Shown: piece by piece, positions 28,243 through 51,705 of the stretch
Layout of the letters: each line of letters opens with the position of its first letter
Position numbering within the stretch: position 1 is the first letter of the stretch
From: Gramella sp. Hel_I_59
Lineage (GTDB): Bacteria > Bacteroidota > Bacteroidia > Flavobacteriales > Flavobacteriaceae
Direction of reading: 5' to 3'
Length of the DNA: 64,000 nt
Assembly (NCBI RefSeq): GCF_006714895.1
Contig: NZ_VFME01000001.1
Location: 3,372,905-3,436,904 of the forward strand
Position numbers and translations under genes: made by a program
The notes under the pieces: generated by a model
The model's database searches: none
Told to the model about the DNA's origin: nothing
Seen by the model: only the letters and a program-made list of their open reading frames with translations

Positions 28243-28278
28243 TGTCTTTTTCTAAAATAACTGGTAGAACTATACTTG
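28243..28278 (+). promoter_or_regulatory. Late-type promoter facing the small-RNA locus
   Basis: TGTCTTTTT (28243-28251; one base off the consensus), 19 bases, TATACTTG (28271-28278). A start near 28283 would run rightward across the small RNA on the opposite strand and into the second methylase gene. Confidence 0.65.
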
Positions 28279-28301
28279 TATCACTTAAATCGGAAGCAGT
28301 T

Positions 28302-28418
28302 AAAAAAGGCCTCCGGCTCGTATAGATCTCTCAAAACCTAATACAAAAACAGCGCAAACGCACCACCGGAGGCCAAGGCCTTCAGGGTACGCTTGCGCTG
28401 TTCAAGGTTTTGAGAGGA
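28302..28418 (-). ncRNA. Candidate phage small RNA with long hairpin and own terminator
   Basis: On the minus strand, CTCTCAAAACCT (28416-28405) pairs over 12 bases with 28339-28328. Inside it, AACAGCGCAA (28402-28393) pairs over 10 bases with 28357-28348. The tip is AAGGCC/GGCCTT. Near the 3' end CCGGAGGCC (28316-28308) is followed by six Ts and can pair with GGCCTCCGG (28374-28366), making a terminator that competes with the tip of the long hairpin. A perfect -7 box lies just upstream. No open frame is present. Confidence 0.6.
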
Positions 28419-28420
28419 TA

Positions 28421-28428
28421 CAAATATA
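28421..28428 (-). promoter_or_regulatory. -7 box of the minus-strand small RNA
   Basis: Minus-strand TATATTTG matches TAnnTTTG exactly; a TTG lies 22 bases upstream. Transcription should start near 28416, at the base of the hairpin. Confidence 0.55.
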
Positions 28429-28452
28429 ACAGTTTAAATAAATCTATACCCA

Positions 28453-29283
28453 ATGTCTGCAGAACTTAAAACACCTATTTCTTACTACGGTGGAAAACAG
28501 AACCTTATCAATACCATTATTCCGTTATTTCCAGATCATACACTTTACGCTGAACCTTTTATAGGTGGCGGCGCTATTTACTGGGCCAAGAAACCTTCAG
28601 AAATTGAAGTGATTAACGATACCAATAAAGAACTCATCAACTTTTATGAAGTCTGCAAGAACGATTTTGTAGACCTGGAGAAGATGATCAGGATCTCATT
28701 ACACTCAAGATCCCTGCACAGCGATGCGAAGGTAGTGTATGACAATCCGCATTTATTTACCAGGATAAAAAGAGCCTGGGCGGTTTGGGTGCTGGCTTCG
28801 CAATCTTTTGCTTCCATGCTGGACGGTTCCTGGGGATATGATAAAAGCAAAGGAACCACTTCACAAAAAATAGCCCGAAGACGTGAAAGCTTTACCGAAG
28901 AATTCAGCATTCGTATGCAGAATACGCAGGTAGAATGCACCGATGCGTTGCGTATCATCAATTCCCGAGACAGTGAAAATTCCTTTTTCTACTGCGATCC
29001 ACCGTATTACAATTCAGATTGTGGCCATTACGACGGGTACAGCATCGATGATTTTGAAAACCTGCTAAAAACCTTATCAAAGATCAAAGGCAAGTTCTTA
29101 CTCAGTAGTTATCCCAGCGAGATCTTAAAGAAATACACCAAAGAATTCGGCTGGCAGCAAAAAACGGTAGAACAAACGGTGAGCGTTTCCAATAATACCG
29201 GGAAATCTGGAAAGAAGAAAACCGAATCGATGACTGCCAATTATGACCTGAGCAATCCAACGGAAAAGCTGAGTCTCTTTTAA
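28453..29283 (+). CDS. Second DNA adenine methylase (D12 class)
   Basis: 276 residues. SAM motif PISYYGGKQNLINTIIPLFP with AEPFIGGGAIYWAKKP, catalytic FFYCDPPYYNSD (DPPY), and FLLSSYPSE. It is clearly different in sequence from the methylase at 26216, so it is not a recent duplicate and probably has another target. It lies after the late-type promoter at 28243, so it may be made later than the first one. Confidence 0.9.
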   Translation: MSAELKTPISYYGGKQNLINTIIPLFPDHTLYAEPFIGGGAIYWAKKPSEIEVINDTNKELINFYEVCKNDFVDLEKMIRISLHSRSLHSDAKVVYDNPHLFTRIKRAWAVWVLASQSFASMLDGSWGYDKSKGTTSQKIARRRESFTEEFSIRMQNTQVECTDALRIINSRDSENSFFYCDPPYYNSDCGHYDGYSIDDFENLLKTLSKIKGKFLLSSYPSEILKKYTKEFGWQQKTVEQTVSVSNNTGKSGKKKTESMTANYDLSNPTEKLSLF

Positions 29284-29299
29284 AGTGCCGTTTAACGGC

Positions 29300-29335
29300 T
29301 GTCCTTTTATCACCAGTAACCGCATCTTATTATTG
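29300..29335 (+). promoter_or_regulatory. Late promoter before the tail-fibre block
   Basis: TGTCCTTTT (29300-29308), 19 bases, TATTATTG (29328-29335). ATG 29343 follows after 7 bases. Confidence 0.7.
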
Positions 29336-29342
29336 TACTTGT

Positions 29343-29789
29343 ATGCTGGCAAAGAATAACAATACCATAGAAGATATCTGCGAGGTATCGCTCAAAAGCG
29401 TTTGGGGAAATACCTTCCCAGATCTCGCGGCTATTTACACCACGCTCTCAAAAATACAATGGAAGAGCAGGTCCCGGCAAACTCCCAACGGCAGTATTTA
29501 CGATAATACACTGGAGCTTAGTTATCCCGGTTTAAACGATAAACAGTTCAAGGAACTCGATGATCTCATTCGCGGGATGTACCAGGTACGTGTAAGAACC
29601 GAAAAAGACCAGTATTACGATCTAGCCTGGGAAGATTGTCCCATGGCCGCATCTATAAGTTTTAACAACGGTAGGACTGAAATTACCTTCAGCCAGAAAG
29701 CAATAGAACCCATAAAATATATTGGGGCCGCTGCAGATCCTGTTGAAGAACTAGGATTCCCGTACACCTTAACCTTTACCCTCTCCTAA
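29343..29789 (+). CDS. Hypothetical phage structural protein
   Basis: 148 residues (DICEVSLKSVWGNTFPDLAAIYTTLSK, YPGLNDKQFKELDDLIRGMYQVRVRTEKDQYYDLAW), mixed alpha/beta. It heads the rightward late block and overlaps the next ATG by 1 base (TAATG). A tail or baseplate role is likely from position only. Confidence 0.6.
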   Translation: MLAKNNNTIEDICEVSLKSVWGNTFPDLAAIYTTLSKIQWKSRSRQTPNGSIYDNTLELSYPGLNDKQFKELDDLIRGMYQVRVRTEKDQYYDLAWEDCPMAASISFNNGRTEITFSQKAIEPIKYIGAAADPVEELGFPYTLTFTLS

Positions 29790-31531
29790 TGCCATATCCA
29801 GAAAAAATAGCGTTTCCAGATAAAAAGCAGCGCAGGCCGCTACTAGATCCCGAAGGTCAGGTATCTGCAGATGAAATAAATTTATTTCGTGATAAGCTTA
29901 ACGCCAACGCCCTATTTTATGATGTACATGACGATCTCGCTGCGCTACAGGCAAAGTTTTCGAATCCGCCAAAAGGCGCTTTTGCCTATTTGCTGGACGG
30001 TAGCTGTTATCGCTGTGTAAATCTTGGATGGACCACAGATCCTACTACGCCAGGCGGCGGTGGCGGAGCTACTTATTTTAAAGGATATTTTGTAGATACT
30101 GAAGGCGGACAGAGCGCCCTGGATAAATTAAGAATCGCCTATCCTAACGGAGAGCCAGGATGGCGTGCAGTATTGCGCGTAGTTGGCGGAAATGATAAAG
30201 AAGCCATCTGGGATGAAGATGATGCCGACTGGTTTACTTTTGAATTTTCCAGCAGCATAAGCCAGGCGTATGTAGACCAGAAAGCAGCCGAAACCCTCGA
30301 AGCTTCCAAAGCTTATGCCCGGAGTTTAACCGGCGGACAGGCTCTGGAGAAAAAAATTATTTCAGTTAGCAGGAATTACCAGGGCGGGATGGATTTTAAA
30401 TTTTCTGCACACTGGATTTTTTACGACCAGGAATTTGGAACCGAAACCGAACCGGTGGTGCAACCTATTACGCTAAATGCTGCCGATGCCACTCATGGAA
30501 GATTTGACGCGGTAGTACTAAATAACCAGGGCCAGATTGTAAAGATTACCGGAAATGCTTCTGCCACTCCGGAAAAACCAACTATAGATCCAGACACTCA
30601 AATAGAAGTCACCTTCTTTTTTATTCCTGCGAATGCCGCAGCTCCAGATAGAGTAAGCAATACGCCTATTTATAATGAAGGTGCCGCTCCCGGCTGGACG
30701 GTTACAGAAACTACCGGAGGTGCGCGCATCAATCTTGCCAGCGGAGTAGATCCACAAGATGGCACAATCTCTATTGAAGCAACCGGAATTAAAAGGTATG
30801 ATTCGGTCACTTTTACGGCAGATGTTCCTATAGATGCCGGGGAAATTAGAGAACTGCCCTTTTTCTTTAAGAATAAAGTAGCTTATGGAGGAACTAACCC
30901 TTTAAGTTTTACGATCTACGGAAAAACATCCAGCGGGGAAAGTGTAGGATATTTTCTAGGGAATTTACAGGCGTTTGGTTATGATCTGGATGATACGAGC
31001 ACGTACCAGGATCTTTCCATTCCCATAGATAAACCAACACTTATTTTTATAACTGGCTTTAAAATCCAGTATGTAGGCTTAGACAGTGCAAATTTTGGTT
31101 TCTTCCTGGATAATATTCGCTATACCAAGGGAGATTATATACGCGCTGAAGATTTTATCTCCAGGGAAGAATATGATCTAAAGGTAGCGGAGTTGGAGTC
31201 TGCACTTGCCAGTAATTTACAATCTGCAAAGGATCATGCAGATCAAAAAGATGCTCCAGTAATTGTGGATATCTCCAGAGAATTAACTGCGGCAGATATT
31301 GATAAAATATTATTTGTGATCGCATCTGTGACTTTAACCTGGCCATCTCCTGGAATTTCAAATTTTAGAGCGAATCTCGAATGCAACGCAGGAGGAGCTG
31401 CAGTGATCGCAGATCAGGCTCAAACTCCTGGAGAGGATCTGGATGCTCCAAACGGATCAGATATCGAGGCCGATGGATCTGCATATTTATTTATTGAGCC
31501 AGTGAATGGAAAATTAAGGATCTCGAAATAA
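29789..31531 (+). CDS. Putative tail fibre / receptor-binding protein
   Basis: 580 residues. The N-terminus (YPEKIAFPDKKQRRPLLDPEGQVSADEINLFRDKLN) looks like a phage-tail attachment segment. A Gly-rich hinge follows near residue 90 (PTTPGGGGGATYF), then a coiled-coil stretch and a beta-sandwich-like domain of carbohydrate-binding type (GAAPGWTVTETTGGARINLASG, FGFFLDNIRYTKGDYI). A second coiled coil precedes the C-terminal beta domain. Modular layout fits a fibre that contacts the host surface. Confidence 0.6.
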   Translation: MPYPEKIAFPDKKQRRPLLDPEGQVSADEINLFRDKLNANALFYDVHDDLAALQAKFSNPPKGAFAYLLDGSCYRCVNLGWTTDPTTPGGGGGATYFKGYFVDTEGGQSALDKLRIAYPNGEPGWRAVLRVVGGNDKEAIWDEDDADWFTFEFSSSISQAYVDQKAAETLEASKAYARSLTGGQALEKKIISVSRNYQGGMDFKFSAHWIFYDQEFGTETEPVVQPITLNAADATHGRFDAVVLNNQGQIVKITGNASATPEKPTIDPDTQIEVTFFFIPANAAAPDRVSNTPIYNEGAAPGWTVTETTGGARINLASGVDPQDGTISIEATGIKRYDSVTFTADVPIDAGEIRELPFFFKNKVAYGGTNPLSFTIYGKTSSGESVGYFLGNLQAFGYDLDDTSTYQDLSIPIDKPTLIFITGFKIQYVGLDSANFGFFLDNIRYTKGDYIRAEDFISREEYDLKVAELESALASNLQSAKDHADQKDAPVIVDISRELTAADIDKILFVIASVTLTWPSPGISNFRANLECNAGGAAVIADQAQTPGEDLDAPNGSDIEADGSAYLFIEPVNGKLRISK

Positions 31532-32313
31532 TGAGCAGGACAAATTTTAATTTTTCAAAAAGGCAGAAATTACAAGGAGAGCCAGTACAATTTATAGAAG
31601 AAAGTAAATTCTCTATCGGAGCAGTTTATTCTTTATTTATGCCTGATTCTGGGGATGCAATTTTCCATATACATTTAACCAATTATAATCTTTATAAAAA
31701 TACTCTTCCTAAGCCTTTTGATTTATCAAGCTCAATCACAAGCACGTCCGGATCACTCAGTCCTACTACTTTTCAGACTTCATTATTTTTTAAACCTGAT
31801 GGCACTAGATTTTTTTATGGCACAGATGCTCAAAAAAGGATATACAGCTGGGATCTAGCAACGCCCTGGGATGTTACAACTAGAACAGGCACAAGAAAAA
31901 ACAGCCCTATGACTTTTCCTTTTATTCATGGTTTATATTTTTCTCAGGATGGATTAAATTGCGTTATAGCAGATGGAAGTAATGGAATTAGAAAGTGCGA
32001 GCTTTCAACAGCTTGGGATATAACAAAAATAAATTCTGGAACTATAATTTACAATGCTCCCGACTACTTGGATGGAATTTCTTTTTATGATAGCGGTAAA
32101 AAGTTTATTTATTCCACTAGGGATGGCGCGAAATTAGAACTATTTGAAGTATCAAATCCTTACGATTTTACAACAATAGTCAAAAGCTACACATTTACAG
32201 ACGCTGTAAATTTTGCATCTGGAGGTCTTGGGATGTCAGCAACTAGCGATGGTAAAAAAATAATCTCCGGGAGAGGAACGTCAAAAATCGTATTACTGAA
32301 TAATAATTTTTAA
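31531..32313 (+). CDS. Beta-propeller-like virion or accessory protein
   Basis: 260 residues, AT-rich codon use unlike the gene before it. About four repeats of the form LFFKPDGTRFFYGTDAQKRIYSWDLATPWDV are seen (also GLYFSQDG...CELSTAWDI and GISFYDSGKK...EVSNPYDF), typical of propeller blades. It overlaps the previous stop by one base. It may be a fibre tip or a receptor-binding accessory. Confidence 0.6.
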   Translation: MSRTNFNFSKRQKLQGEPVQFIEESKFSIGAVYSLFMPDSGDAIFHIHLTNYNLYKNTLPKPFDLSSSITSTSGSLSPTTFQTSLFFKPDGTRFFYGTDAQKRIYSWDLATPWDVTTRTGTRKNSPMTFPFIHGLYFSQDGLNCVIADGSNGIRKCELSTAWDITKINSGTIIYNAPDYLDGISFYDSGKKFIYSTRDGAKLELFEVSNPYDFTTIVKSYTFTDAVNFASGGLGMSATSDGKKIISGRGTSKIVLLNNNF

Positions 32314-32316
32314 AAC

Positions 32317-32775
32317 ATGATAGTAAGAAGCAAAATACATCTTTTATACGATGCTTTAGAAAGCAAAAAAGGAATAATAAGCCCGGAGATCCAATCGATT
32401 AAAAGAAATATTAAATCTGGAAATTACGAGATCGAGATTTTTGATCGATTAAAAGTGGAGAGGCAAGATCCAGCTCCAGGATCTCCGATTTTTATTTATC
32501 AATTTTTGAGAAAGCGAGTTAAAACTTATAGTCCTGCACAGATCTCTCAGCTTTTCGATTTATTTGGATCCAATATTATCAAAGGAGAGAATGATTTCGA
32601 TCCTAAATTTATAGGCACTTTGCCAGAGGCTTTGTTATTCACCAGCAACACTACTTCCATATATGGCAGCCTGGCCAAAACTCCGGAGGAGATTTTAAAC
32701 GGAGCAGCTGGAGCTTTCGAGCTCATCGATGAAAGCCTGGAAATCCAGCCGGATCCAGATCCTGCGGTTCCGTAA
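32317..32775 (+). CDS. Hypothetical phage protein after the propeller protein
   Basis: 152 residues with a basic, helical N-terminus (MIVRSKIHLLYDALESKKG) and an acidic Pro-rich tail (IQPDPDPAVP). It starts 4 bases after the propeller gene and shares its AT-rich style at the start. Possibly a fibre assembly partner; unproved. Confidence 0.55.
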   Translation: MIVRSKIHLLYDALESKKGIISPEIQSIKRNIKSGNYEIEIFDRLKVERQDPAPGSPIFIYQFLRKRVKTYSPAQISQLFDLFGSNIIKGENDFDPKFIGTLPEALLFTSNTTSIYGSLAKTPEEILNGAAGAFELIDESLEIQPDPDPAVP

Positions 32776-32780
32776 TTTCC

Positions 32781-32816
32781 TGTCCTTTTCTACCCTACTC
32801 TAAAAAAGCACTTTTG
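32781..32816 (+). promoter_or_regulatory. Late promoter before the lysis block, overlapping a terminator hairpin
   Basis: TGTCCTTTT (32781-32789), 19 bases, CACTTTTG (32809-32816, a weaker -7 box). Confidence 0.6.
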
Positions 32817-32841
32817 TTAATACACTGAAAGTGCTTTTTTT
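32803..32841 (+). terminator. Terminator after the propeller block
   Basis: AAAAAGCACTTT pairs with AAAGTGCTTTTT around a 13-base loop, with a T run touching the next ATG. It shares bases with the -7 box of the promoter. Confidence 0.75.
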
Positions 32842-33459
32842 ATGAGATTGATTTCCTTCCTTAAAAACCTGTTTACCAGCACCAATGATTTCTTTATGCA
32901 GGATGATCATTTGATCTTCCAGGCTAAAAGAGATATGGATGTGATGCTGCAGCTCTGGCAATATGAGATTAGCGAACGCGGTCCCTATAACCAGGCTTTT
33001 GATTATTTCTTAAGAAACCCAAAACATTTTAACGGCGCCAGCATGACTGAAGAGTTATGTGATATTCCGTGGCTGGACCTGGACGCCATGCTGCACGATT
33101 ATTTATATGTAGGTCTCAACGCTTCAGCTAGCCTTAAAATGACGTGGCGCGCAGATAAATTACTGAGACAGGAAATGCGTAGACGTGGGAAAAGCAGCTG
33201 GAATACCGGGTATAGGTTTGCTATGCTTACCCTTAAAACCCCATTCTTCCTGGCGTGGGCATACCTGGTAAAAGGTAGAAGAATAAGCGATTCACAAAAA
33301 AGAGATCTTAAAATAATTTTTGCACTTCTGGAAAAGGAAGATTCCCGTAAATGGCACGAAAAATACAAAGGTGAAATTACCTGGGCGATCATTATCATAG
33401 CATTTATTTCCGGCTATCTCTACAGAACAGACTTTTTAAATCAACTGTTGCCATGGTAA
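32842..33459 (+). CDS. DUF1353-like phage protein with C-terminal membrane helix
   Basis: 205 residues. The block CDIPWLDLDAMLHDYLYVG followed by ADKLLRQEMRRRG matches the HDYLY...AD pattern of DUF1353-type phage proteins, found near lysis genes. The C-terminus carries one helix (ITWAIIIIAFISGYLY). Function unknown; the His-Asp pair suggests a hydrolase-like site. Overlaps the next gene by 7 bases. Confidence 0.6.
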   Translation: MRLISFLKNLFTSTNDFFMQDDHLIFQAKRDMDVMLQLWQYEISERGPYNQAFDYFLRNPKHFNGASMTEELCDIPWLDLDAMLHDYLYVGLNASASLKMTWRADKLLRQEMRRRGKSSWNTGYRFAMLTLKTPFFLAWAYLVKGRRISDSQKRDLKIIFALLEKEDSRKWHEKYKGEITWAIIIIAFISGYLYRTDFLNQLLPW

Positions 33460-36394: not shown

Positions 36395-36931
36395 GTGAGT
36401 AAACAACTAATCCCCTTCCCTTTTCCGAAATACTTAGCTGAATTTCTATTTTCTCAAATGAAATCTCAGCCTTTAGAGATAGCAGATAGTGGAGATAAAG
36501 TCAAAGCACTACACGTGAATCAAAAGAATAGTTTTGGTAAATTGATCTATAGTAGATTAAAAGAATCCAATAGACCCGCCTTTGAAAAGGATGGCTACAC
36601 GCTTTATATATCTGTTTCAGATCACGCACGCCGAAGAAATAAAACTGCATTAGACGGAAGATCCAGATTCTTGAGTTTAGATGAAGATGAAATAGAAGAA
36701 ATTATCGCTGTCTTTAAAGACTGGTTTTCGACAAATCTTTATCATTTTATTTTAGCTGCAGAAGTGACCCATAAAATGAATGGCAAAAACAAAGGGGCTA
36801 TTCACTTCGCAATCAACAAATTCATGGAATTATACAATATTTCCGACTCAAAAACTAAATTCGCCACCTTTGTCAAGTTCTATCAAAGAGAAACAGAGGC
36901 GAAACGCCAGCAATTACAACGCATGACGTAA
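36395..36931 (+). CDS. Hypothetical phage protein
   Basis: 178 residues from GTG 36395. SKQLIPFPFPKYLAEFLFSQMKSQPL then FLSLDEDEIEEIIAVFKDWFSTNLYHFILAAEV and a helical C-terminus. It looks like a DNA-binding or assembly protein but no family is recognised. It lies alone between the lysis block and the head genes. Confidence 0.6.
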   Translation: MSKQLIPFPFPKYLAEFLFSQMKSQPLEIADSGDKVKALHVNQKNSFGKLIYSRLKESNRPAFEKDGYTLYISVSDHARRRNKTALDGRSRFLSLDEDEIEEIIAVFKDWFSTNLYHFILAAEVTHKMNGKNKGAIHFAINKFMELYNISDSKTKFATFVKFYQRETEAKRQQLQRMT

Positions 36932-37051: not shown

Positions 37052-37087
37052 TGTCCTTTTCTAAGCATCCCGCTGCTTCTATCATTG
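37052..37087 (+). promoter_or_regulatory. Late promoter of the head block
   Basis: TGTCCTTTT (37052-37060), 19 bases, TATCATTG (37080-37087); ATG 37107 follows after 19 bases, with TTGTACAATG at the start. Confidence 0.7.
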
Positions 37088-37106: not shown

Positions 37107-37985
37107 ATGTTCACAGACACAGAATCTGAAATTTTATCGAGCACTTGGGCGCTATCTGAGCAGCACGCACAGCCATGGCTATTAATGGTTGCACAGATCC
37201 TGCAGGGAAAACAAGTTTCCCAAGCCGATCCTAATTTTAAAAAGGAAGTCCGCGGATATATTATTGATCAGGACGGGCAGCCTATAGATCGAAATGAAAA
37301 TCCCAACACACCTATCAACAGTATTGGAGTCATTGAGATTTCCGGTCCTATGGTTAAAAAAGGAAGCTGGTATCGATGGGGCGCTGAAGAATTAGTGAGA
37401 ATCGCGGAATACTTTGAAAGAGATCCTAATATCATTGGTCACATCTGGTTACTGGATTCTGGCGGCGGCTCTGTAAACGCCATTGCTCCATTCAGAGAAT
37501 TTCAGAAGAAAAAAACAAAACCACTTATCGGCCTTGCCGATATGTGTGCCAGCGCAAACCTATATGCAGGCGTTGGATGTGACAAGTTAGTTGCCCGCAA
37601 TAACATCTCTTCCATGTTTGGAAGTATTGGTGTGATGGCAACCCTAATCGACTACACCGAATATTTAAAGGCAATGGGAATTAAAGAGCGATTAATCTAC
37701 GCTTCCCAGAGTTCCTTTAAACATAAAAGCTACAACGAAGCCCTAAAAGGTAAAGATGGAGCATTTAAGAAAGAGCACCTGAATCCGCTGGCGATTCAAT
37801 TCCAGGAGTTCGTCAAATCACAACGCCCAAAATTAAAGACAGACGTAGAGGGAATCCTCGAGGGTAAAATGTTCTATGCTGAAGAAGCACAGGAAATTGG
37901 TTTGATAGACGGGATCATGGATTTTGAAGAGGCTGTGGAAGAGGTCAAATTCCTCTCACAAGTGAGAACCTACATGAATAATTAA
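37107..37985 (+). CDS. S49-family prohead protease
   Basis: 292 residues. SppA-like fold: IGVIEISGPMVKKG, IWLLDSGGGSVNAIAPFREF, the nucleophile region LADMCASANLYAGVG (Ser in CASA), and SSMFGSIGVMATLIDYTEYLKAMG. It should trim the scaffold and capsid protein during head maturation, as lambda C does. It stands directly before the capsid gene, under a late promoter. Confidence 0.85.
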   Translation: MFTDTESEILSSTWALSEQHAQPWLLMVAQILQGKQVSQADPNFKKEVRGYIIDQDGQPIDRNENPNTPINSIGVIEISGPMVKKGSWYRWGAEELVRIAEYFERDPNIIGHIWLLDSGGGSVNAIAPFREFQKKKTKPLIGLADMCASANLYAGVGCDKLVARNNISSMFGSIGVMATLIDYTEYLKAMGIKERLIYASQSSFKHKSYNEALKGKDGAFKKEHLNPLAIQFQEFVKSQRPKLKTDVEGILEGKMFYAEEAQEIGLIDGIMDFEEAVEEVKFLSQVRTYMNN

Positions 37986-41876: not shown

Positions 41877-41912
41877 TGTCCTTTTACCCCTTGTTACCTG
41901 TTCCTAAGTTTG
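41877..41912 (+). promoter_or_regulatory. Late promoter of the packaging block
   Basis: TGTCCTTTT (41877-41885), 19 bases, TAAGTTTG (41905-41912), a perfect TAnnTTTG box. ATG 41941 lies 28 bases on. Confidence 0.75.
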
Positions 41913-41940: not shown

Positions 41941-42903
41941 ATGACTTCACAACAAAATGAAGTTGTAGATTTTATCAAGCACGACCGTACTTTAAGCGGC
42001 GCACGTAAAATTTACAACACGCTCCCTAACAGATCCAGATCTTTTCATCACCAGCTTAACGGGATGACCAGTACACCGGCAAACCTGGAACGAGCGATTT
42101 ATCAACTATGCAGAGCTGCAGGAATAGACCAGCGAAAAATGAACGCTTTACTGCAAAGCCCGGTAGTTAAAAAAGAAGAGACTCCAGAAAGAGGTGTTGT
42201 AATTTTAGGAGCTGGCAGTTCCGGAGTAGTTTCCCTGGCAGCACGCGTGATGACCTTTTCCGCAGATACTGCAGAGTGGCCAGATATCCAATCATTGGCT
42301 GCAGATATTGCCGAAGCTAAAGACAGAAAAGCAGAGGGCCGCGATAAACCTTCACTTATTGCTTTTATCCAGGAAGAACGTGCACAGTTAATTGCTGAAG
42401 AAGCCAAGGAAGTTCCCATCAACGTAAAAAAATCTATCAAGCTTAGAGAGCAATTTCCTTTCATTAAAAAGAAAGACTGCCCAGATGTATTAAAAGTGCT
42501 GGTAAACGATCTTATAAGCGCTTACGATGCCTATAAAGAAGGCCGTGAGAAGTTATGGGCGAGTATGAGCGAAGAGGAAGAAAAGATTCTGGCTCAGGAA
42601 ATCGTAGATAATTTTATCGAAAACAAACAGGCTTATGATGAGCTGGAGCATTTTCACAAAAACGGAACGCTGCTCGGCGAACATCCAATTTTTAGAGAAG
42701 CTGAGATCAAGGCCGAGCTGGAGAAACTGGACGGTGAAGAGCTTAGAAAAAGATACCAGGCACTACGCACCAACGTTTCCAGGAATGAATCTAAAGCTGA
42801 AAAGGCTGAAGACGTAGAAAAGAAAGCAGAATATACTGAAAAGGCTGCAGACTATGCGTGGCAGCGTGATTATGTTTCAGAACTTCTGAAATCTAAAAAA
42901 TAA
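41941..42903 (+). CDS. Hypothetical phage protein before terminase genes
   Basis: 320 residues, helical. VVDFIKHDRTLSGARKIYNTLPNRSRSFHHQLN and AIYQLCRAAGIDQRKMNALLQS at the start, a charged middle, and an acidic coiled-coil end (KAEKAEDVEKKAEYTEKAADYAW). It abuts the next ATG (TAATG). A role in packaging is inferred from its place. Confidence 0.6.
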   Translation: MTSQQNEVVDFIKHDRTLSGARKIYNTLPNRSRSFHHQLNGMTSTPANLERAIYQLCRAAGIDQRKMNALLQSPVVKKEETPERGVVILGAGSSGVVSLAARVMTFSADTAEWPDIQSLAADIAEAKDRKAEGRDKPSLIAFIQEERAQLIAEEAKEVPINVKKSIKLREQFPFIKKKDCPDVLKVLVNDLISAYDAYKEGREKLWASMSEEEEKILAQEIVDNFIENKQAYDELEHFHKNGTLLGEHPIFREAEIKAELEKLDGEELRKRYQALRTNVSRNESKAEKAEDVEKKAEYTEKAADYAWQRDYVSELLKSKK

Positions 42904-43233: not shown

Positions 43234-43896
43234 ATGGAACAGATCATTGAAACAATTGAGGAACTCGATAAAATCGAGGAAGGTGATCATTTTAGCCTTT
43301 TAGAAGAATGGATTGAAGGTGGTACCGATAAGCTGCCCGAAGAAATGCTCATCTACTTAAAGCAACTGGAATTAATTCGTGGGTTCTTTTATGCTGGCGA
43401 TATTAATCCCAGGAAGATCACTCGAAAGTTACAATTACATTATCCAGATCTAAGCATCAAGCAATGCAGAACCCGCATTGATGATGCCCGGGTTTACTTC
43501 TATTTGAATGAAGAAATAAAAAAAGATTTCTACAGGCGTATTCATTATGAACAGCAAATGCAAATGTACAAGGTGACTAAAACCACTGCCAAAACGCATG
43601 CTGAAATGAAGATTGCCAGTGATATACTTAAAGAAGCCGGAAAGCTTATTGAACTGGATAAGCCCGATAAAGAAACGCTACCGGAAGAATTCTTCATTAA
43701 ACCAAACCGCTTCTTCTCTCTTAAACCTTCAGATATTGGGCTGCCCGATGATATGAATCGTAACGAAGTAGGAAACTGGCTGGATAAGCTTCAAATAGCC
43801 GAAACAGAAAAATTCAGGCTTAAGCAGGATTTAGGTTCAGAACCAAGACAAATATTCGATTACGATGGCGAAGAGGACGATCACAGCGGAGAATGA
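43234..43896 (+). CDS. Putative terminase small subunit-like protein
   Basis: 220 residues from ATG 43234; an earlier in-frame start at 43192 would overlap the previous gene and is not preferred. DINPRKITRKLQLHYPDLSIKQCRTRIDDARVYF is helix-turn-helix-like; the C-terminal tail is acidic (DYDGEEDDHSGE). It overlaps the large terminase gene by 32 bases, which supports a packaging partner. Confidence 0.55.
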   Translation: MEQIIETIEELDKIEEGDHFSLLEEWIEGGTDKLPEEMLIYLKQLELIRGFFYAGDINPRKITRKLQLHYPDLSIKQCRTRIDDARVYFYLNEEIKKDFYRRIHYEQQMQMYKVTKTTAKTHAEMKIASDILKEAGKLIELDKPDKETLPEEFFIKPNRFFSLKPSDIGLPDDMNRNEVGNWLDKLQIAETEKFRLKQDLGSEPRQIFDYDGEEDDHSGE

Positions 43897-45568
43897 CCAG
43901 GTATCTGTAGCTTACATGAACTGGCTCCAGCAGCTGGTGCTTATGGTAGGTCCTAAAAATGCCGCTATCATCGCCGCTCGTGCGATGGGAAAAACCACGG
44001 GTATTCTCGCCCCCAGGATTCAGGATGTTAGTTATGATATGCCCGGCTGTTATATGGCTATTTCCGGGGATACTTTTATGAACCTTCGCAAGAATGTGGT
44101 TCCGTCGCTTATGGACGGTTGGAAGATTCACGGCTGGCATGAAGATCATCACTACGTGGTAAACAAAAGACCTCCAAAAACCTTTGGGAAACCGTACAAA
44201 GCTCCTATAGAATATAAACATAGTATTACAGATTTTCTGGGAACACACTATAAGATGATAAGCCAGGACCGCCCTTCGGGGGGTGCCGGGGACTCCTATC
44301 AGCATATTGTTGGGGATGAAGTAAAGTATCAATCTAAAAAGAAAATAAGTAAGCTTACTCCTGCGAAACGTGGTGGTGAGTTAAAGTTTAGAAAATCGGT
44401 TTATTATGGTGGTGTCACCTTCACTACCGATATGCCTAATGTGAATCACGGTGAACATGACTGGATCCTGGACATGGAAAAGAACATGGATAAGGCTCAA
44501 ATAAAGCGAATTATTTATGCCGCTTTTATTCTGAACGAAATACGCGCTGAAGTTTTCCATGCAGAGCAGGAAGGAAATCGTTCCAAGATTGAAAAAGCAA
44601 AACGAAAGTTTAAGCGTTGGGAAGATCGCTGGATCTCCCAGCGAAAAAACAGCACCTTCTTTTATATCGCATCCAGTTTAGTAAACCTCGATTTCTTAGG
44701 ATTTGAATATTTGTTAGAACAGTTTGATGAGCTTGATTTTTCAGAATTATGTTCTGCTATATTTTCCATTCAACCCAAAATGGAAAAATCTAAAATGTTC
44801 TACCCGGCTTTGTCCGAGAATTTATTTAATAAAGACGGCTGGGACTACAGCAAACTGGATAACGACACCGACTGGACGCAAGAATACCAGGAAAGTTCCT
44901 TAGATTTAAAATACATCGATCACCGTGCACCCATTGAAGCTGGAATGGATACAGGAGGAATGTGTTCGCTTGTAACAGGACAGGAACAGGGAAATAAGAT
45001 TAGAGCTTTAAAAGAATTTTATACCGTTGGAACAGACTTCTTGATTGAACTCGGAAAACAATTTCGTGATTTTTACAGGCATCATAAAGAAAAGCATTTG
45101 GAGTTGTGGCCAGATCGTGCAGCCTTCGCTTATAAAAAACAGGGAGAAGATCACGCCAGTAAGTTTAAGAAAGCGATTGAATATGATGAGTTTGGAAATT
45201 CTACCGGCTGGACAGTTACGATTATGAACGAAAATCAGGAAACGATTTACCACTGGCAGGAATATGAACTTGCTTTAGCATTTATGACCAGGTCGAATCC
45301 AGACCTTCCAGAGTTACTAATTGATGGGAATACCTGTAAATGTTTAAAATCATCGATGGAGCTGGCAGAGAAAATTATTAAAACCTCAAAAACTGGATCT
45401 AAGACAGTTCACAAAAATAAAAGTTCAGAAAAACTGCCGGAAAAAGACCTTCCAATGAAGTCTACCAACATGAGTGATGCCTTCAAGTATTTCATGTGCA
45501 GGCCGAAGTTTTTGGAAAAAATAGGTGGTAACACGGTAAGATTCACCGGAATGCCAGGTGCACACTAA
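43865..45568 (+). CDS. Terminase large subunit
   Basis: 567 residues. The ATPase part shows a Walker A variant NAAIIAARAMGKTTGIL (near residue 38), and Walker B YQHIVGDEVKY. The nuclease part begins at AGMDTGGMCSLVTG (RNase H-type first Asp) and ends with MSDAFKYFM. It pumps DNA into the head and cuts it. Whether packaging uses cos or pac sites cannot be told from the sequence. Confidence 0.85.
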   Translation: MAKRTITAENDQVSVAYMNWLQQLVLMVGPKNAAIIAARAMGKTTGILAPRIQDVSYDMPGCYMAISGDTFMNLRKNVVPSLMDGWKIHGWHEDHHYVVNKRPPKTFGKPYKAPIEYKHSITDFLGTHYKMISQDRPSGGAGDSYQHIVGDEVKYQSKKKISKLTPAKRGGELKFRKSVYYGGVTFTTDMPNVNHGEHDWILDMEKNMDKAQIKRIIYAAFILNEIRAEVFHAEQEGNRSKIEKAKRKFKRWEDRWISQRKNSTFFYIASSLVNLDFLGFEYLLEQFDELDFSELCSAIFSIQPKMEKSKMFYPALSENLFNKDGWDYSKLDNDTDWTQEYQESSLDLKYIDHRAPIEAGMDTGGMCSLVTGQEQGNKIRALKEFYTVGTDFLIELGKQFRDFYRHHKEKHLELWPDRAAFAYKKQGEDHASKFKKAIEYDEFGNSTGWTVTIMNENQETIYHWQEYELALAFMTRSNPDLPELLIDGNTCKCLKSSMELAEKIIKTSKTGSKTVHKNKSSEKLPEKDLPMKSTNMSDAFKYFMCRPKFLEKIGGNTVRFTGMPGAH

Positions 45569-45757
45569 CAAGTTTTCCCTTGAAAAGTTCAAGTTTTCGC
45601 AACTATTTCCCTGAGGCAAATGGTTAAATAGCTGAAAATCAGCGAATCGACCCTATGCCCTATTTTTAATTTTCAATTCGTCTCACAGTTCTGCCCGCCA
45701 CGCTCAGACCTCTAAACGTAATTACACTTTGTTACCTTTTTTAGAGATATGATTGGG
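45569..45757. other. Gene-free gap after terminase
   Basis: 189 bases; no open frame or clear terminator. It leads directly into the next late promoter and could hold a packaging site, but nothing specific is visible. Confidence 0.3.
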
Positions 45758-45793
45758 TGTCCTTTTGCTGCCGCTTTCGCTTCGGTAATATTG
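45758..45793 (+). promoter_or_regulatory. Late promoter of the portal/tail block
   Basis: TGTCCTTTT (45758-45766), 19 bases, TAATATTG (45786-45793); ATG 45799 after 5 bases. Confidence 0.72.
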
Positions 45794-45798
45794 AGACA

Positions 45799-46068
45799 AT
45801 GAATACAACTACCTACACACTTGAAGAGGCTATTACGCTAATGAGGAATTGCTCTAAGCTTAGTAAGCCATTCAGTATCTACTATGCTAAGCTTGGAGGT
45901 GGCAAGAAGCGCATCGTTAACGCAAGCCTTCGGCCCATGGCATCAACCAAAGATGATCGCAATGCGAAGTACAAACTTCAGCTAAGAGACAATGATAATC
46001 ATGTAAACAGGAGTTGTTACATCCCTTTGCTAATGGAGGTGAATGGGATAGAAGTCAAATTGAAATAA
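45799..46068 (+). CDS. Small hypothetical protein before portal
   Basis: 89 residues from ATG 45799 (the frame opens earlier but would include the promoter). TTTYTLEEAITLMRNCSKLSKPFSIYYAKLGGGKKR; basic, alpha/beta. No family recognised; it is the first gene of the portal block. Confidence 0.6.
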   Translation: MNTTTYTLEEAITLMRNCSKLSKPFSIYYAKLGGGKKRIVNASLRPMASTKDDRNAKYKLQLRDNDNHVNRSCYIPLLMEVNGIEVKLK

Positions 46069-46069
46069 G

Positions 46070-47461
46070 ATGGGACACAGATTACCTTCAGGAAAAGAAT
46101 ATTTAGGTGTAGCAGATGGCAAGGCTCATTACTTCGAGATAGCAGGCCGAGAGGCAACTGGATCTAACGCATCCAATTCTAAGGAAGAATTCAGCCGGTG
46201 GAATGAGAACCCATTAAGATTGGGAGACTACCAAGTAATACCCTTCGGCACCAACAATGATATACCAGATGAAGTCCAAGAAACTATATTCCCTAATCAC
46301 CTTGCTCCTACAATACTTGATCGTAAGTCTAACTTAGCCTTTGGTCAGGGGCCTTACCTGTACAGGTTCAAGCCGGACGGAAGCCAGGCAACCCGAGATC
46401 CAATAGAAGATGCGGCAATTACCCAATGGCTGGATGATATCGATGTAGAGATACTTTCCTTTCAACGGTCTGTGGAATATTATTACATAGATAACGTGTT
46501 TACGAAGATTCGTAATCTTAGAGGCTCCAGGCTTGGAATGAATAAGATGGCGCCGGTACTGGAAGAAATGACTTCCAAGAGATGCAGACTGGCTTATAGA
46601 AAAGGAGCGAGATCTAAGAAACCCACGCATGTGGTGGTGGGAGACTGGAAGAATTCCTCTAACCAGGCAGACTTTGAAGTATATCCACTTTGGGATCGTA
46701 AGAACCCCACTAAATATCCAATATCTATTCATTACACAAACTCCAAAAGTTTTGGAATGGAAGATTATGCGTTACCAAAAGCATATGGAACTCTCAACTG
46801 GATAAAGAGATCTACTGCAGCTCCACGTATTATTGAAGCTTTTACAAATAACTCTCTAAATATTCGCTTTCATATAACGTCACCTCAGAAATTCTGGTCT
46901 GATAAGGAACAGGAATTAAAAAATAAGTGTAAAAACACTCAGGGACTTACTTATAGCCCCAAAATGCTAGAGGATCTAGAAGAGCAAATCTTTGATAGCT
47001 TATCTCAGGTACTTTCCGGAATCGATAACGTGGGCAAGTTCTGGCACAACAAAACCGTAACCACAATGATAGGTAATACCCCAGTTGAAGAAGGCTGGAA
47101 AATCACACCTATTAAGCAGGAAGTAAAAGAATATGTAGAAGCCCAGATCAAGGTAGCAGATAAGTCCGATTTTGCCGTACAGGCCGGTCTATCGCTTCAT
47201 GCTTCCCTTGCTAATGTTGGTGCAGACGGAAAGTCCGATTCAGGCTCTGAACAGCTTTACGCTTACCAGATCCACCAGTTAACTGGAATACCTGTCGCAG
47301 AGCTTTTTATCTGCAAGGTCTTTAACGATGTGATCAAGGCATATTTTAAAACCGACATCAAACTTGGATTCTACCAGATTTCAGCACAAAGAGAACAGGA
47401 CACTTCAGAATCTAGCCGAACAAAAAACCAATCTGCCATTAAACCTAAAAAAGCCGAATGA
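46070..47461 (+). CDS. Portal protein
   Basis: 463 residues. Portal-like features are the N-terminal ENPLRLGDYQVIPFGTNNDIPD and HLAPTILDRKSNLAFGQGPYLYRF, a central stem with TYSPKMLEDLEEQIFDSLSQVL, and a C-terminal clip and crown with HASLANVGADGKSDSGSEQLYAYQIHQ. It forms the ring through which DNA enters. Position after terminase fits. It overlaps the next ATG by 4 bases. Confidence 0.75.
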   Translation: MGHRLPSGKEYLGVADGKAHYFEIAGREATGSNASNSKEEFSRWNENPLRLGDYQVIPFGTNNDIPDEVQETIFPNHLAPTILDRKSNLAFGQGPYLYRFKPDGSQATRDPIEDAAITQWLDDIDVEILSFQRSVEYYYIDNVFTKIRNLRGSRLGMNKMAPVLEEMTSKRCRLAYRKGARSKKPTHVVVGDWKNSSNQADFEVYPLWDRKNPTKYPISIHYTNSKSFGMEDYALPKAYGTLNWIKRSTAAPRIIEAFTNNSLNIRFHITSPQKFWSDKEQELKNKCKNTQGLTYSPKMLEDLEEQIFDSLSQVLSGIDNVGKFWHNKTVTTMIGNTPVEEGWKITPIKQEVKEYVEAQIKVADKSDFAVQAGLSLHASLANVGADGKSDSGSEQLYAYQIHQLTGIPVAELFICKVFNDVIKAYFKTDIKLGFYQISAQREQDTSESSRTKNQSAIKPKKAE

Positions 47462-48396: not shown

Positions 48397-48674
48397 AATA
48401 TTACAGTGAAAAGCAGAGAGGAAAACTTCACAATTTAATGCTGAAGCTCGCACTCAGGAAAGCTTTAAAAAGAAAGAGGAGATTTCGTGCATTAAGGAAA
48501 AATCCAGTAAGACATGCTGAATATCAAATTGGAGTAAATGTTTTGGGTCAACCAGTTTATGCAATCCATACTATTTGCGAAACACTAAGTAAATATCAAA
48601 AACCAGGAATACAAGTAACAAATCAAATTCTAACATCTTATGAACAAACTAAAACTAATTTTTCAAGCCATTAA
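48393..48674 (+). CDS. Small basic phage protein
   Basis: 93 residues with an extremely basic first third (KLALRKALKRKRRFRALRKNPVRHAEYQ). Overlaps the previous stop by 4 bases and the next gene by 35. Likely a connector or DNA-contacting protein; no family. Confidence 0.55.
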   Translation: MKYYSEKQRGKLHNLMLKLALRKALKRKRRFRALRKNPVRHAEYQIGVNVLGQPVYAIHTICETLSKYQKPGIQVTNQILTSYEQTKTNFSSH

Positions 48675-48954
48675 AGCATTCTTTTACAGTTTAACCCCGC
48701 AGGCCCGAAAGGAAAGGCGAGAAGAAAAATACTATGAGGAGGCACTTAAGAATATGCAGGGACCAGAAGCTCTGGAGCTATTTCAAAAAAGAATCCTGCA
48801 GCGCGATATCAATGATTTTCTGAATAGAGACAAGAAGATCAGGATTTTACCAGAAACGCAGAAAGTACTGCTGGTAAAAGATAAATTCCGCAAAGATTTA
48901 AAATTGCTTAAGCTTACCGTTTGCCCAGAAACTATAAAATTAATTAGCGCATGA
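48640..48954 (+). CDS. Hypothetical small phage protein
   Basis: 104 residues, basic and helical (FFYSLTPQARKERREEKYYEEALKNM, LLVKDKFRKDLKLLKLTV). Starts within the end of the preceding gene. No family recognised. Confidence 0.55.
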   Translation: MNKLKLIFQAIKAFFYSLTPQARKERREEKYYEEALKNMQGPEALELFQKRILQRDINDFLNRDKKIRILPETQKVLLVKDKFRKDLKLLKLTVCPETIKLISA

Positions 48955-49049
48955 TGCCATATATAGATTCATTATCTGTTTTTTGGATCTGCTTATGTAT
49001 TGGCTTTTGCTTTTTATGTATGGCCTTAGGCGGGAAATGGAATAAGTAA
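48951..49049 (+). CDS. 32-residue membrane peptide
   Basis: ATGATG at 48951 overlaps the previous TGA; TAA at 49047 touches the next ATG. The product is one hydrophobic helix (SVFWICLCIGFCFLCMALG) with four Cys and a KWNK end. The tight packing supports translation. Possible membrane partner of the SPFH protein. Confidence 0.55.
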   Translation: MMPYIDSLSVFWICLCIGFCFLCMALGGKWNK

Positions 49050-49592
49050 ATGGGACAGATTCAACAATTTATAGAATACATTTTTAATGCACTCAAGATA
49101 TGGGTGATCGTGCAACCATGGGAAGCCGGCATTCGGGTTCGTAACGGTAAAAAGATCAAAAAACTAGATAAAGGCATTCACTTTAAACTACCCTATTTTG
49201 ATAGTGTTTATGTCCAGGAGATCCGCCTTCGTGTAAGAGAATTGCCCATGCAAACACTTACTTCTAAAGATCTTAAAACCATCACACTTAACAGTTCGAT
49301 TGGTTATTCTATAAGAGATATCGAGAAGCTATACCAAACACTATACAGGCCAGAAATGACCCTTCAAAACATTGCGATGAGTGCCATTGCAGAAGTTGTT
49401 TATACAACGAATGCCAGGGACGTAAGTCCGGAGTTATTAGAGAAAAGTGTTTTATCAAAACTCTCTGCAGAAGATTACGGTCTCAACTACGAGTATTTTA
49501 AAGTAACAAATTTTGCAGTGGTTAGAACGTACAGGCTTATCCAGGATCAAAGCTGGGTAGATTCTGGATTTTCTTTAAATGAAAAGAAATAA
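49050..49592 (+). CDS. SPFH/band-7 (stomatin-like) phage protein
   Basis: 180 residues. An N-terminal amphipathic or membrane helix (YIFNALKIWVIVQPWEAGIRVRNGK) is followed by the band-7 core: KGIHFKLPYFDSVYVQEIRLRVRELPMQTLTSKDLKTITLNSSIGYSI, then the SAIAEVV helix. SPFH proteins form membrane rings and scaffolds. To find one in a phage tail gene block is unusual. It is preceded by a tiny membrane peptide without a gap. Confidence 0.75.
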   Translation: MGQIQQFIEYIFNALKIWVIVQPWEAGIRVRNGKKIKKLDKGIHFKLPYFDSVYVQEIRLRVRELPMQTLTSKDLKTITLNSSIGYSIRDIEKLYQTLYRPEMTLQNIAMSAIAEVVYTTNARDVSPELLEKSVLSKLSAEDYGLNYEYFKVTNFAVVRTYRLIQDQSWVDSGFSLNEKK

Positions 49593-50451
49593 CATGCACA
49601 GCATTCAATTCGGTAAAATAACCAAAGAATTTCCTGAAGGTATTGCAGAGATGAGCGATGCACAGTATCGCTATTTTTCATTCCTGGAGCTTAATCGCCA
49701 GCAAGGTCGTATGGATATGAAAACCCTGGAAACATTGTTTGTCTATTTTGTAATGGATATGGTTCATGCCAGCGAATCTCCAAAATCAGTAGAAAACATC
49801 ACTCGCCTTCGTGAGTTGGTACGCCCCTATTTTGTAGATCAGGAAAGCAAGAATAAAAAAGAGATCCGGAAAATTGTAGATCTTAATTTTGTGAAGAATC
49901 CCCTTCCAGAAATCATCATAGATAAGACTGTTTTATTGGGACCCGATGCTGCCCTGGCTAATTGCAGCTATGAAGAAGTATTTGTACACTGCCAGAATGC
50001 GATGATCGATTTTTGTAATACAAATGATCAGACATGCCTTGATGAAATGGTAGCCGTATTGTACAGGCCGGCACGCAAGAATAAACGCCCAAAATTTTCT
50101 TCGGAAGATTTAGAAGAAAGAATCCAGCTGGTAAGCAAATTACCACCAGAAGTGAAATTTGGAGTTTTTATGTTTTTCTCCAGCTGCCACAAATTCATTA
50201 CCACTGCAGATGCACTTACATTAAAAGGCGGAATTGAGGTAAACATTGCCCAGCTTTTCAAACCTTCTAAGAAAAAAGCAAAAGGCGTGGGACCTGTGGG
50301 TGTCATTTGGGACCTCGCAGAAAGTAATGTTTTCGGGAATGCAGAAGACACTGGAAAAGTAAATGTGTACGATGTACTCGTGCGCATGGTGCAGTTGCAT
50401 GAAAAAGCAGAAGAATTAAAGAAAAAAGATGATCACAGAAGCAAAACTTAG
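49579..50451 (+). CDS. Phage protein of the tail block, hypothetical
   Basis: 290 residues. MHSIQFGKITKEFPEGIAEMSDAQYRYFSFLELNRQQG at the start; helical; PSKKKAKGVGPVGVIWDLAESNVFGNAEDTGKVNVYDVLVRMVQLHEKA at the end resembles tail-assembly chaperone-type tails. Start at 49579 overlaps the SPFH gene; ATG 49594 is possible. It lies in the place of tail assembly proteins, upstream of the tape measure. Confidence 0.55.
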   Translation: MKRNNMHSIQFGKITKEFPEGIAEMSDAQYRYFSFLELNRQQGRMDMKTLETLFVYFVMDMVHASESPKSVENITRLRELVRPYFVDQESKNKKEIRKIVDLNFVKNPLPEIIIDKTVLLGPDAALANCSYEEVFVHCQNAMIDFCNTNDQTCLDEMVAVLYRPARKNKRPKFSSEDLEERIQLVSKLPPEVKFGVFMFFSSCHKFITTADALTLKGGIEVNIAQLFKPSKKKAKGVGPVGVIWDLAESNVFGNAEDTGKVNVYDVLVRMVQLHEKAEELKKKDDHRSKT

Positions 50452-50878
50452 CAGGATCCAGGAAATGGCAAAAGCCGATAATCCTGAAATTAAACATAAC
50501 ATCACTTTAGTAACAGATGAAGATGTTGCGATCTTCACCAGGGATATGCCTGGCGATGAATTAGTTCTTTTTGGAGTTTTACCGTCTTTTGGTTTAGACT
50601 TTAAGAACCTGGATGAGTTTAAGCATAAGAATAAAATGATTTTCTTCTTAATGTACAAACATGACATTAACGAGGGGTATGATGCATACCGCAAGCTTTA
50701 TAATGATACTGCAGCACACGTGCTCCGGTTCGAAAAGTGGTTGTTTGAACAAAGCGAAAAGTTTCAGGGTGATTGCCTTTTTAAGGATATAGATTTTAGA
50801 ACTTTTGATGCAGATCCCGTTAGTAACTACAAAGGCTTTTATGGGTATATGATGCATTTCGATTTAAAGACAAAATAA
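50429..50878 (+). CDS. Hypothetical phage protein of the tail block
   Basis: 149 residues (MITEAKLSRIQEMAKADNPEIKHNITLVTDEDVAIFTRDM, LRFEKWLFEQSEKFQGDCLF). Overlaps the previous gene by 23 bases, which recalls the paired chaperone genes before tape measure in other phages. No slippery site is obvious. Function unknown. Confidence 0.55.
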   Translation: MITEAKLSRIQEMAKADNPEIKHNITLVTDEDVAIFTRDMPGDELVLFGVLPSFGLDFKNLDEFKHKNKMIFFLMYKHDINEGYDAYRKLYNDTAAHVLRFEKWLFEQSEKFQGDCLFKDIDFRTFDADPVSNYKGFYGYMMHFDLKTK

Positions 50879-50879
50879 T

Positions 50880-51014
50880 ATGGGACCTAATAAAATAAAT
50901 GAAGATTCTTTTAAAGTTCATGAGTTTTATAGATATGAAAATACAGAACCAACCAGAGCTGAAAGAAGAAAACTCGAGAGACAAGAGAATAAAAATCGAT
51001 TCAAAAAACAATGA
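50880..51014 (+). CDS. 44-residue basic peptide
   Basis: ATG 50880 immediately after the previous TAA; 44 residues, very basic at the end (RAERRKLERQENKNRFKKQ). Followed by a terminator. No family recognised. Confidence 0.5.
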   Translation: MGPNKINEDSFKVHEFYRYENTEPTRAERRKLERQENKNRFKKQ

Positions 51015-51084
51015 AAATAATACACCTTAATACCAACATACAGATTCGTTCACCGGGTCCTACTTCCCCACGAACGTCTGTCAT

Positions 51085-51108
51085 ACGTCCCTTCGGGGAC
51101 GTTTTTTA
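51085..51108 (+). terminator. Terminator before the cassette gene
   Basis: ACGTCCC, TTC, GGGGACGT with a run of six Ts. Confidence 0.85.
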
Positions 51109-51140
51109 TTATATATTAGTAATTCAATTAATACTGTACT

Positions 51141-51602
51141 ATGGGAATATTCAACCGAAAATCTAAAATAAACAAAGGTTATCAGGAACTATTAATGGAA
51201 GCGCCAAGCATTCCAGACAGTACTTTTTTATTGGAAGATGAAGAAACAAATTCATCTAACCAGAAATTAAAAAATTACTTTAAAAAAACCGATGAACTAT
51301 ATTTCTGGTATTTCGATGAAATGGTATTAAAAGATTTTGAAGGCATACCAAATAAAAACTTCATCTTTCATAAAAGAAAAATTAATTCGGTGAAAAATCT
51401 GAAGGATATCGTCAACCAATTTTACAATCATTATGGTATTGATGATAATGGAGCCGGTATGTTTGATAAGCAGGATACAATTGATATCAAAGAAGGTTAT
51501 TGGAGCGGAAGAACTTACACAGATTCTAAACATAAACATCCGGCATTATTTTCATACGATAAAAACGAAGGATTGGATCTCACCATTTTCTATACTGGAT
51601 AA
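51141..51602 (+). CDS. Hypothetical AT-rich protein flanked by two terminators
   Basis: 153 residues (IFNRKSKINKGYQELLMEAPSIPDSTFLLEDEETN, ELYFWYFDEMVLKDFEGIPNKNFIFHKRKINSVKNLKDIVNQFYNHYG). No family recognised. AT-rich and placed between two intrinsic terminators, it is a self-contained unit. It probably has a promoter in the 32 bases upstream, where no late motif exists. Confidence 0.6.
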   Translation: MGIFNRKSKINKGYQELLMEAPSIPDSTFLLEDEETNSSNQKLKNYFKKTDELYFWYFDEMVLKDFEGIPNKNFIFHKRKINSVKNLKDIVNQFYNHYGIDDNGAGMFDKQDTIDIKEGYWSGRTYTDSKHKHPALFSYDKNEGLDLTIFYTG

Positions 51603-51623
51603 AATCTTCAACATTCCTAAGAA

Positions 51624-51648
51624 CCGCCAAAGTGCGGTTTTTTTTATG
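51624..51648 (+). terminator. Terminator after the cassette gene
   Basis: ACCGC, CAAAGT, GCGGT, then seven Ts. Confidence 0.85.
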
Positions 51649-51669
51649 TCTTCACTTAACCTTCTAGTG

Positions 51670-51705
51670 TGTCCTTTTAGGAGCGCATCCGCGTTCCTAA
51701 ACTTG
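51670..51705 (+). promoter_or_regulatory. Late promoter of the tape-measure block
   Basis: TGTCCTTTT (51670-51678), 19 bases, TAAACTTG (51698-51705); ATG 51710 after 4 bases. Confidence 0.72.

Follow-up and report, generated by a model that had tools for sequence, protein, structure and literature searches.

How does a temperate phage of the Bacteroidota switch on its late genes? This question is raised by a prophage of Gramella sp. Hel_I_59, located in a 64-kb stretch of DNA (hereafter the window; positions 3,372,905 to 3,436,904 of contig NZ_VFME01000001.1) that is the terminal part of a 3.44-Mb contig. In a preliminary description of the window, seven copies of a short box, each followed at a constant distance by a motif resembling the -7 element of Bacteroidota promoters, were proposed to be phage late promoters. 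The late-gene switch of temperate Bacteroidota phages was not described in any result available to us from the open-licence PubMed Central literature, and the available part of PMC8776804 does not contain the word 'promoter'. The analysis presented here supports the late-promoter interpretation, the sites being putative promoters as judged from their sequence and context. We consider it probable that the host -7 element is kept in these promoters, that a phage-specific box with the consensus NGTCCTTYN lies at a fixed distance of 19 base pairs (bp) from it, and that the box is used by a phage activator, most likely the product of a gene that we call fam15.

Seven sites with a fixed spacing

All seven sites are found on the + strand exactly where they had been placed, with a spacer of exactly 19 bp in every case. 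At the first site (28243..28278), TGTCTTTTT-N19-TATACTTG lies 174 nucleotides (nt) upstream of the ATG (28453) of a D12 methylase gene. At the other sites the box is TGTCCTTTT, followed after the spacer by TATTATTG ahead of a probable tail block (29300..29335; 7 nt upstream of the ATG at 29343), by CACTTTTG ahead of a block containing the genes for a DUF5675 protein and fam15 (32781..32816; 25 nt upstream of the ATG at 32842), and by TATCATTG 19 nt upstream of the head maturation protease gene (37052..37087). The last three sites end in TAAGTTTG (41877..41912; 28 nt upstream of the ATG at 41941, the first gene of a block leading to the terminase), TAATATTG (45758..45793; 5 nt upstream of the ATG at 45799, portal operon) and TAAACTTG (51670..51705; 4 nt upstream of the ATG at 51710, tape-measure operon). 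The proposed placement ahead of late blocks and the methylase was thereby confirmed, and no strict site occurs in the early operon.

With both strands counted together, the window contains seven copies of the box TGTC[CT]TTTT, each at one of these sites, and in all seven [TC]AnnnTTG follows after exactly 19 bases. The full pattern is absent at spacers of 14-18 and 20-25, and seven strict matches compare with a mean of 0.01 and a maximum of 1 in 300 order-2 Markov sequences. Only the strict sites stand out, because a rule allowing two mismatches finds 12 matches where 4.16 are expected. The likeness of the -7 half to the Bacteroidota TAnnTTTG box, also part of the preliminary description, holds for TTG (7/7) and for TA (6/7, the site at 32781 having CA); the full TTTG is present at two sites, the other five having a different base ahead of TTG, so that the match is a degenerate one. 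The host -33 element TTTG is absent from all seven sites, where the TTTT within the box is found. A weak match at 18594, which had been mentioned as an exception in front of early-operon genes, had to be discarded as an early copy of the element: it is a two-mismatch match within coding sequence, at the 3' end of a gene of the early set, and the apparent equivalent in a related phage of another genome of the genus, G003 (L020:5474; equivalence inferred from gene order), reads CGTCCTTTT with no -7 box following.

Between the prophage and its G003 relative, the seven boxes are identical at 63/63 bases and the -7 boxes at 55/56, compared with 82/133 for the spacers, 152/280 for the 40 nt upstream and 204/280 for the 40 nt downstream. 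The box of the first site is kept in G003 and in the viral record G024, which are not independent of each other, as their phages are identical or nearly so. Since the boxes are kept while spacers and flanks diverge, we take this pattern to be the footprint of a bound element at a constrained distance. A conserved operator would leave the same footprint, and the prophage encodes a Cro/CI-type helix-turn-helix protein, its presumed repressor (16693..17175, - strand; HTH_3 match), divergently from the early operon; the box could in that case be the target of this repressor, or of a host regulator, silencing the late genes in the lysogen. However, a fixed 19-bp distance to a -7 box, with neighbouring spacings unoccupied, is typical of a contact with the polymerase, and Cro/CI operators are palindromic. 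Silencing through the box is in our judgement highly improbable.

Occurrence in host chromosomes

An equal frequency of the motif in the host chromosome had been named as a finding that would speak against a phage element; the strict pattern proved not to be enriched in host chromosomes. The genome of Hel_I_59 itself (G000) contains seven strict matches, of which six lie in this prophage (the pattern used here requires TA, so that the site at 32781 is not counted) and one at 2926922. The latter was considered as a host counter-example and rejected, as it sits between the fam15 and head protease genes of a second, different prophage (G000_p2; G000:C1:2908000-2960000, L045-L047), which has its own portal, terminase, head-protease, LuxR-like, integrase and fam15 genes. 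The terminase gene of this second prophage reads opposite to its neighbours, an arrangement also seen in G702, a genome of the same order.

Among 24 genomes of the genus, matches were found in Hel_I_59 and in G003, which carries the related phage, and in none of the 22 others. In the order, matches occur in 27 of the 395 genomes, and the 394 besides Hel_I_59 contain 29 matches versus 55 for the reversed control (counted by hand), so there is no enrichment in the order. Two or more matches on one strand occur in Hel_I_59 and G518 only. G518 harbours a prophage of the same kind, in which one match separates the fam15 frame from the head-protease frame and the other precedes the portal operon; the plus-strand match of G702 lies about 0.6 kb past a fam15 gene. 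An alignment search detected no fam15 in the 24 other match-bearing genomes nor in 14 match-free ones, a soft negative since the G518 gene was missed by the same search and found later. The remaining single matches look like chance, because no fam15 was seen in their genomes. An earlier alignment search, with equally soft negatives, had detected fam15 in 4 of 395 genomes taken from across the phylum. A host regulon was thus rejected as the source of the sites, the strict pattern being enriched neither in the genus nor in the order.

Recurrence and variation in related phages

Relatives of the prophage were collected from IMG/VR and INPHARED through the portal protein, with open reading frames (ORFs) taken from a simple caller and proteins clustered by single linkage. 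As the preliminary description had anticipated for related phages, the box-N19--7 architecture recurs ahead of homologous late operons, in phages of both Flavobacteriales and Bacteroidales. It is present in five of seven IMG/VR records (G024, seven sites; G026, three; G027, four; G029, three; G030, three) under a pattern that asked for TTG and not TA, G024 and G026 being examined as the first 40,000 of 44,456 and 44,897 bases; the two records with no such site are contigs of 5.7 and 18 kb. Four sites occur in Ingeline_1, three in BT-TP2 of Bacteroides (one with TA), and one each in the Porphyromonas phages 019b and 032a (neither with TA). Leef_1 has one site at spacing 19 and five more copies of TGTCCTTTT in other settings. 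Where genes were annotated and a head protease was found, a site precedes the head protease gene.

The phages laban6-1 and 6H have no TGTCCTTTT sites; instead, TGTCACAA (five times) and TGTCTTAA (four times) stand before genes that bear the box in other phages; every copy lies on the coding strand, and the opposite strand has none. With Markov means of 0.82 and 1.11 and maxima of 4 and 4 in 100 sequences, the numbers alone are suggestive of changed boxes, and it is the placement that counts. In 6H, a spacer of 18 fits three of the four sites better. The box variants of the related phages comprise TGTCCTTTT, TGTCGTTTG, TGTCACAA and TGTCTTAA.

These variants bear on the possibility that the sites are simply strong host-type promoters, in which TGTCCTTTT would serve the host sigma factor as an extended -33 element and no phage factor would be involved. 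The TTTT of the box occupies the place expected for the host -33 TTTG, and the gut phage scaffold MT835559 (L030), which has no fam15 match, carries TGTCCTTTG-N19-TACCTTTG twice, the box being merged with a host-like -33 TTTG. The use of different boxes by phages of one host genus (laban6-1 and 6H) and the lack of enrichment in host chromosomes both argue against it, as does the observation, in the part of the Flavobacterium johnsoniae study available, that a -33 motif is far harder to discern among 241 probable promoters (PMC6847099). We regard this explanation as very unlikely.

fam15, a candidate late activator

The preliminary description suggested either a phage activator or a modified RNA polymerase. 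For the first, fam15 provides a candidate gene; the second found no support, as no sigma or RNA polymerase family was matched among the window proteins scanned, which covered part of the ORFs. The fam15 gene (36395..36931, + strand; 178 amino acids, GTG start, no Pfam model) lies directly upstream of the head operon. In 78 loci drawn from viral contigs and bacterial genomes with fam15 alone, independently of the motif, TGTC is followed by TA...TTG at exactly 24 bases in 51 cases, versus a mean of 3.25 at other spacings (5-45) and three cases on the opposite strand; near-copies were kept in these counts, which also include a lesser, unexplained peak of 15 at spacing 12. In 86 loci (L054-L139), NGTC-N24-[TC]AnnnTTG stands no more than 60 nt ahead of an ORF start 74 times on the + strand versus twice on the - strand, out of 115 and 41 matches in total.

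Under a strict rule, 47/98 loci have a site in the 1 kb that follows fam15 (reverse strand 0/98, upstream 0/88), and 59/98 do so when spacers of 18-20 are allowed (reverse strand 0/98, upstream 3/88). Most of the 19 misses inspected have AGTCCTTYN-N19 with a differently formed -7 box. Under a relaxed rule (NGTCnTT, N19 and at least four of the six letters of TAnnTTTG), set post hoc after viewing these misses, a site lies within 760 nt downstream of fam15 in 75/84 distinct loci, with 1/84 on the reverse strand and 0/76 upstream; the 84 were retained from 100 fam15 loci after removal of loci in which fewer than 750 nt followed the gene or the fam15 C-terminus was identical to another. The box class tracks the fam15 tree, with 21 changes versus 41.9 for shuffled labels, in a test on 82 of the 84 loci (the two box-less loci were left out, seven boxes were assigned by hand and the last match was taken where there were two), an agreement to which linkage and near-copies contribute. 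A search of each locus for repeated 6-mers at each offset revealed no overall enrichment (60 and 64 on the + strand at offsets 26 and 27, up to 65 on the minus strand at 24); within this noisy de novo search, GTCCTT recurs at offset 27 in many fam15 loci.

The predicted C-terminus of fam15 is three-helical, which is compatible with DNA binding. A fold search returned nothing significant among solved structures, and in a viral library its single match with E below 0.001 was the Leef_1 homologue. None of the Pfam families matched more than 4 of 108 fam15 members; single members matched PF06857 (4.7e-11, in one odd protein) and, non-significantly, PF16805, a phage late-transcription coactivator (0.027). 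A precomputed PF27273 tag on one homologue was not reproduced when that homologue was scanned directly. The related prophages of G000_p2 and G702, which belong to a single type, carry a TGTCCTTTT box with spacer 20 directly upstream of fam15 itself. In one locus (L080), TGTCCTTTT and GGTC-TT units cluster in short steps about 120-200 nt past fam15.

The most serious competitor for the role of activator is the early LuxR/GerE-like protein (17815..18432, + strand; 205 amino acids, PF00196 below cut-off, weak GerE match at the C-terminus), which would have a typical DNA-binding fold and be expressed ahead of the late genes. It has counterparts in 8 of the 14 phages of the first set and in G000_p2, G518 and G702. 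A profile of its cluster, however, detected no such protein in BT-TP2 or in either Porphyromonas phage, all of which bear the box and fam15, and the box is not palindromic, unlike the usual LuxR sites, so that we think it unlikely to be the activator. Another conserved small phage protein could also act at the sites, for example cluster 5 (45799..46068, + strand; no Pfam match), whose gene opens the portal operon immediately after a late site and which is present in 12 of the 14 phages. That it is as widespread as fam15 in the phages compared weighs against singling out fam15. Because its gene heads a late operon, though, cluster 5 would itself depend on a late switch that is already on, and the chance that a protein of this sort is the activator appears slight.

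Predicted transcript starts and leaders

According to the part of the F. johnsoniae study available, the -7 box spans T-12 to G-5, many starts lie 4-5 nt past the box, and leaders exceed 10 nt in 87% of predicted transcripts (PMC6847099). By analogy with this published spacing, the phage box would cover about -40 to -32. The distance from TTG to ATG is 4, 5 or 7 nt at three operons of the window (51670-51710, 45758-45799 and 29300-29343) and 4-6 nt at the portal and tape-measure operons of G003, G026, G027 and Ingeline. Therefore, the predicted start coincides with the AUG or falls a few nt from it, and the corresponding late mRNAs would be leaderless or nearly so.

At the site at 32781, the -7 box is part of the left arm of a terminator-like hairpin (32800-32842; -14 kcal/mol, z -5.0) that ends just upstream of the ATG, with the same arrangement in the G003 sequence. 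Such a hairpin would stop messages coming from upstream, while messages begun at the site would escape it. The first site is separated from the methylase start by 174 nt (28278-28453; 176 nt in the G003 counterpart), possibly a leader or a small RNA; no unusual fold was found in the first 63 nt of this gap.

Organization of the prophage

The early operon starts at 17324, and the late blocks follow in series on the + strand up to 59173. Upstream of the first early gene, TATATTTG (17246..17253, + strand) forms the -7 box of the presumed early promoter; it is of the host type and is not preceded by a TGTC box. On the + strand, the late genes include those for the head maturation protease (37107..37985; phrog_53), the large terminase (43865..45568; in the same cluster as BT-TP2 and Pg019 proteins annotated as terminase), the portal protein (46070..47461; in a homologue cluster, and the query that led to the relatives) and the tail tape measure protein (52083..55193), the last identified, like the integrase (60751-62130), by scanning the window proteins. 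The portal protein is 49.2% identical to that of Ingeline_1 and 38.5% to that of laban6-1, both filed as Duneviridae, and portal, adaptor, terminase and tape-measure homologues link the prophage to this family; Leef (Helgolandviridae) and the Porphyromonas phages share these clusters too. A Mu-like phage, suspected from the layout, was rejected: the 654-amino-acid early protein has no transposase family match, and the structural genes are common to Duneviridae. An SPFH/Band 7 domain protein is encoded at 49050-49592, within the late tail block. Two BRCT-bearing proteins (15423-16481 and 62275-63096; Pfam matches just below cut-off), encoded on the same strand, flank the prophage and are possibly linked to the integration site.

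Proposed mechanism and comparison with known systems

In the mechanism that we propose, the host primary sigma factor would read a -7 box of the TAnnTTTG type retained in the late promoters, whereas the -33 region would be replaced by the phage box NGTCCTTYN (TGTCCTTTT here). A phage-encoded activator, most likely fam15, whose gene stops shortly before the head promoter, would bind the box and replace or supplement the contact of sigma region 4 with DNA, and host RNA polymerase would start the late operons only once the activator has been made. fam15 may also boost itself by positive feedback, given the box upstream of its own gene in G000_p2 and G702. We infer the promoter status of the sites, the binding of fam15 to the box and its contact with sigma from sequence comparison. 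Many Bacteroidota viruses appear to tag the starts of late, virion-building genes with one short box at a fixed distance from the promoter element of the host.

Both in the human gut and in the sea, the Bacteroidota rank among the leading phyla. With a box at a fixed address and a candidate gene, the question of their late switch becomes directly testable. Box and fam15 together are a marker by which late operons and the late regulator can be annotated in many prophages, the box variants are natural material on the joint change of an activator and its site, and the system could yield an inducible, host-orthogonal promoter for Bacteroidota genetics.

Compared with host sigma-ABfr promoters (-33 TTTG, -7 TAnnTTTG), the -7 half is common to both, and the -33 half differs in being NGTCCTTYN with phage-specific variants. 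The RinA/ArpU/Ltr late regulators of Firmicutes phages are encoded by a small gene just before the packaging or structural block, and fam15 likewise lies directly before the structural block; they belong to another phylum with another promoter code, and no family of this type was found for fam15 among the PHROGs and Pfam matches listed. In phage Mu, the position of the activator gene (C/Mor) is also comparable. The box here is not palindromic, which differs from Mu, and no Mor/C family is among 25 of the 27 Pfam families listed for fam15. The likeness to Mu, as far as the available part of the source goes, is that of a temperate phage with a dedicated activator and several dispersed late promoters (PMC4461284).

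The closest parallel in operation is offered by the middle promoters of phage T4, in which, in the part of the source available, a host -10-type element is kept and the -35 element is replaced by a MotA box read by a phage activator (PMC2988021). The T4 box is centred at -30, at 12 +/- 1 bp from the -10 element (PMC2988021), compared with 19 bp at all seven sites here, and the host sigma factor and promoter code are different. No MotA family is among 25 of the 27 Pfam families listed for the 108-row fam15 alignment, and the fold search gave no significant match; neither spacing nor a MotA match makes the late promoters members of the T4 system, and by analogy their mechanism would work like that of the T4 middle promoters. 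Tentatively, and with rather less confidence than in the late-promoter mechanism itself, fam15 may represent a phylum-wide activator family with a fold of its own that takes the -33 role of the Bacteroidota primary sigma factor, with lineage-specific, co-evolving NGTC boxes and partly leaderless late messages, that is, an appropriation of sigma independent of that in T4.

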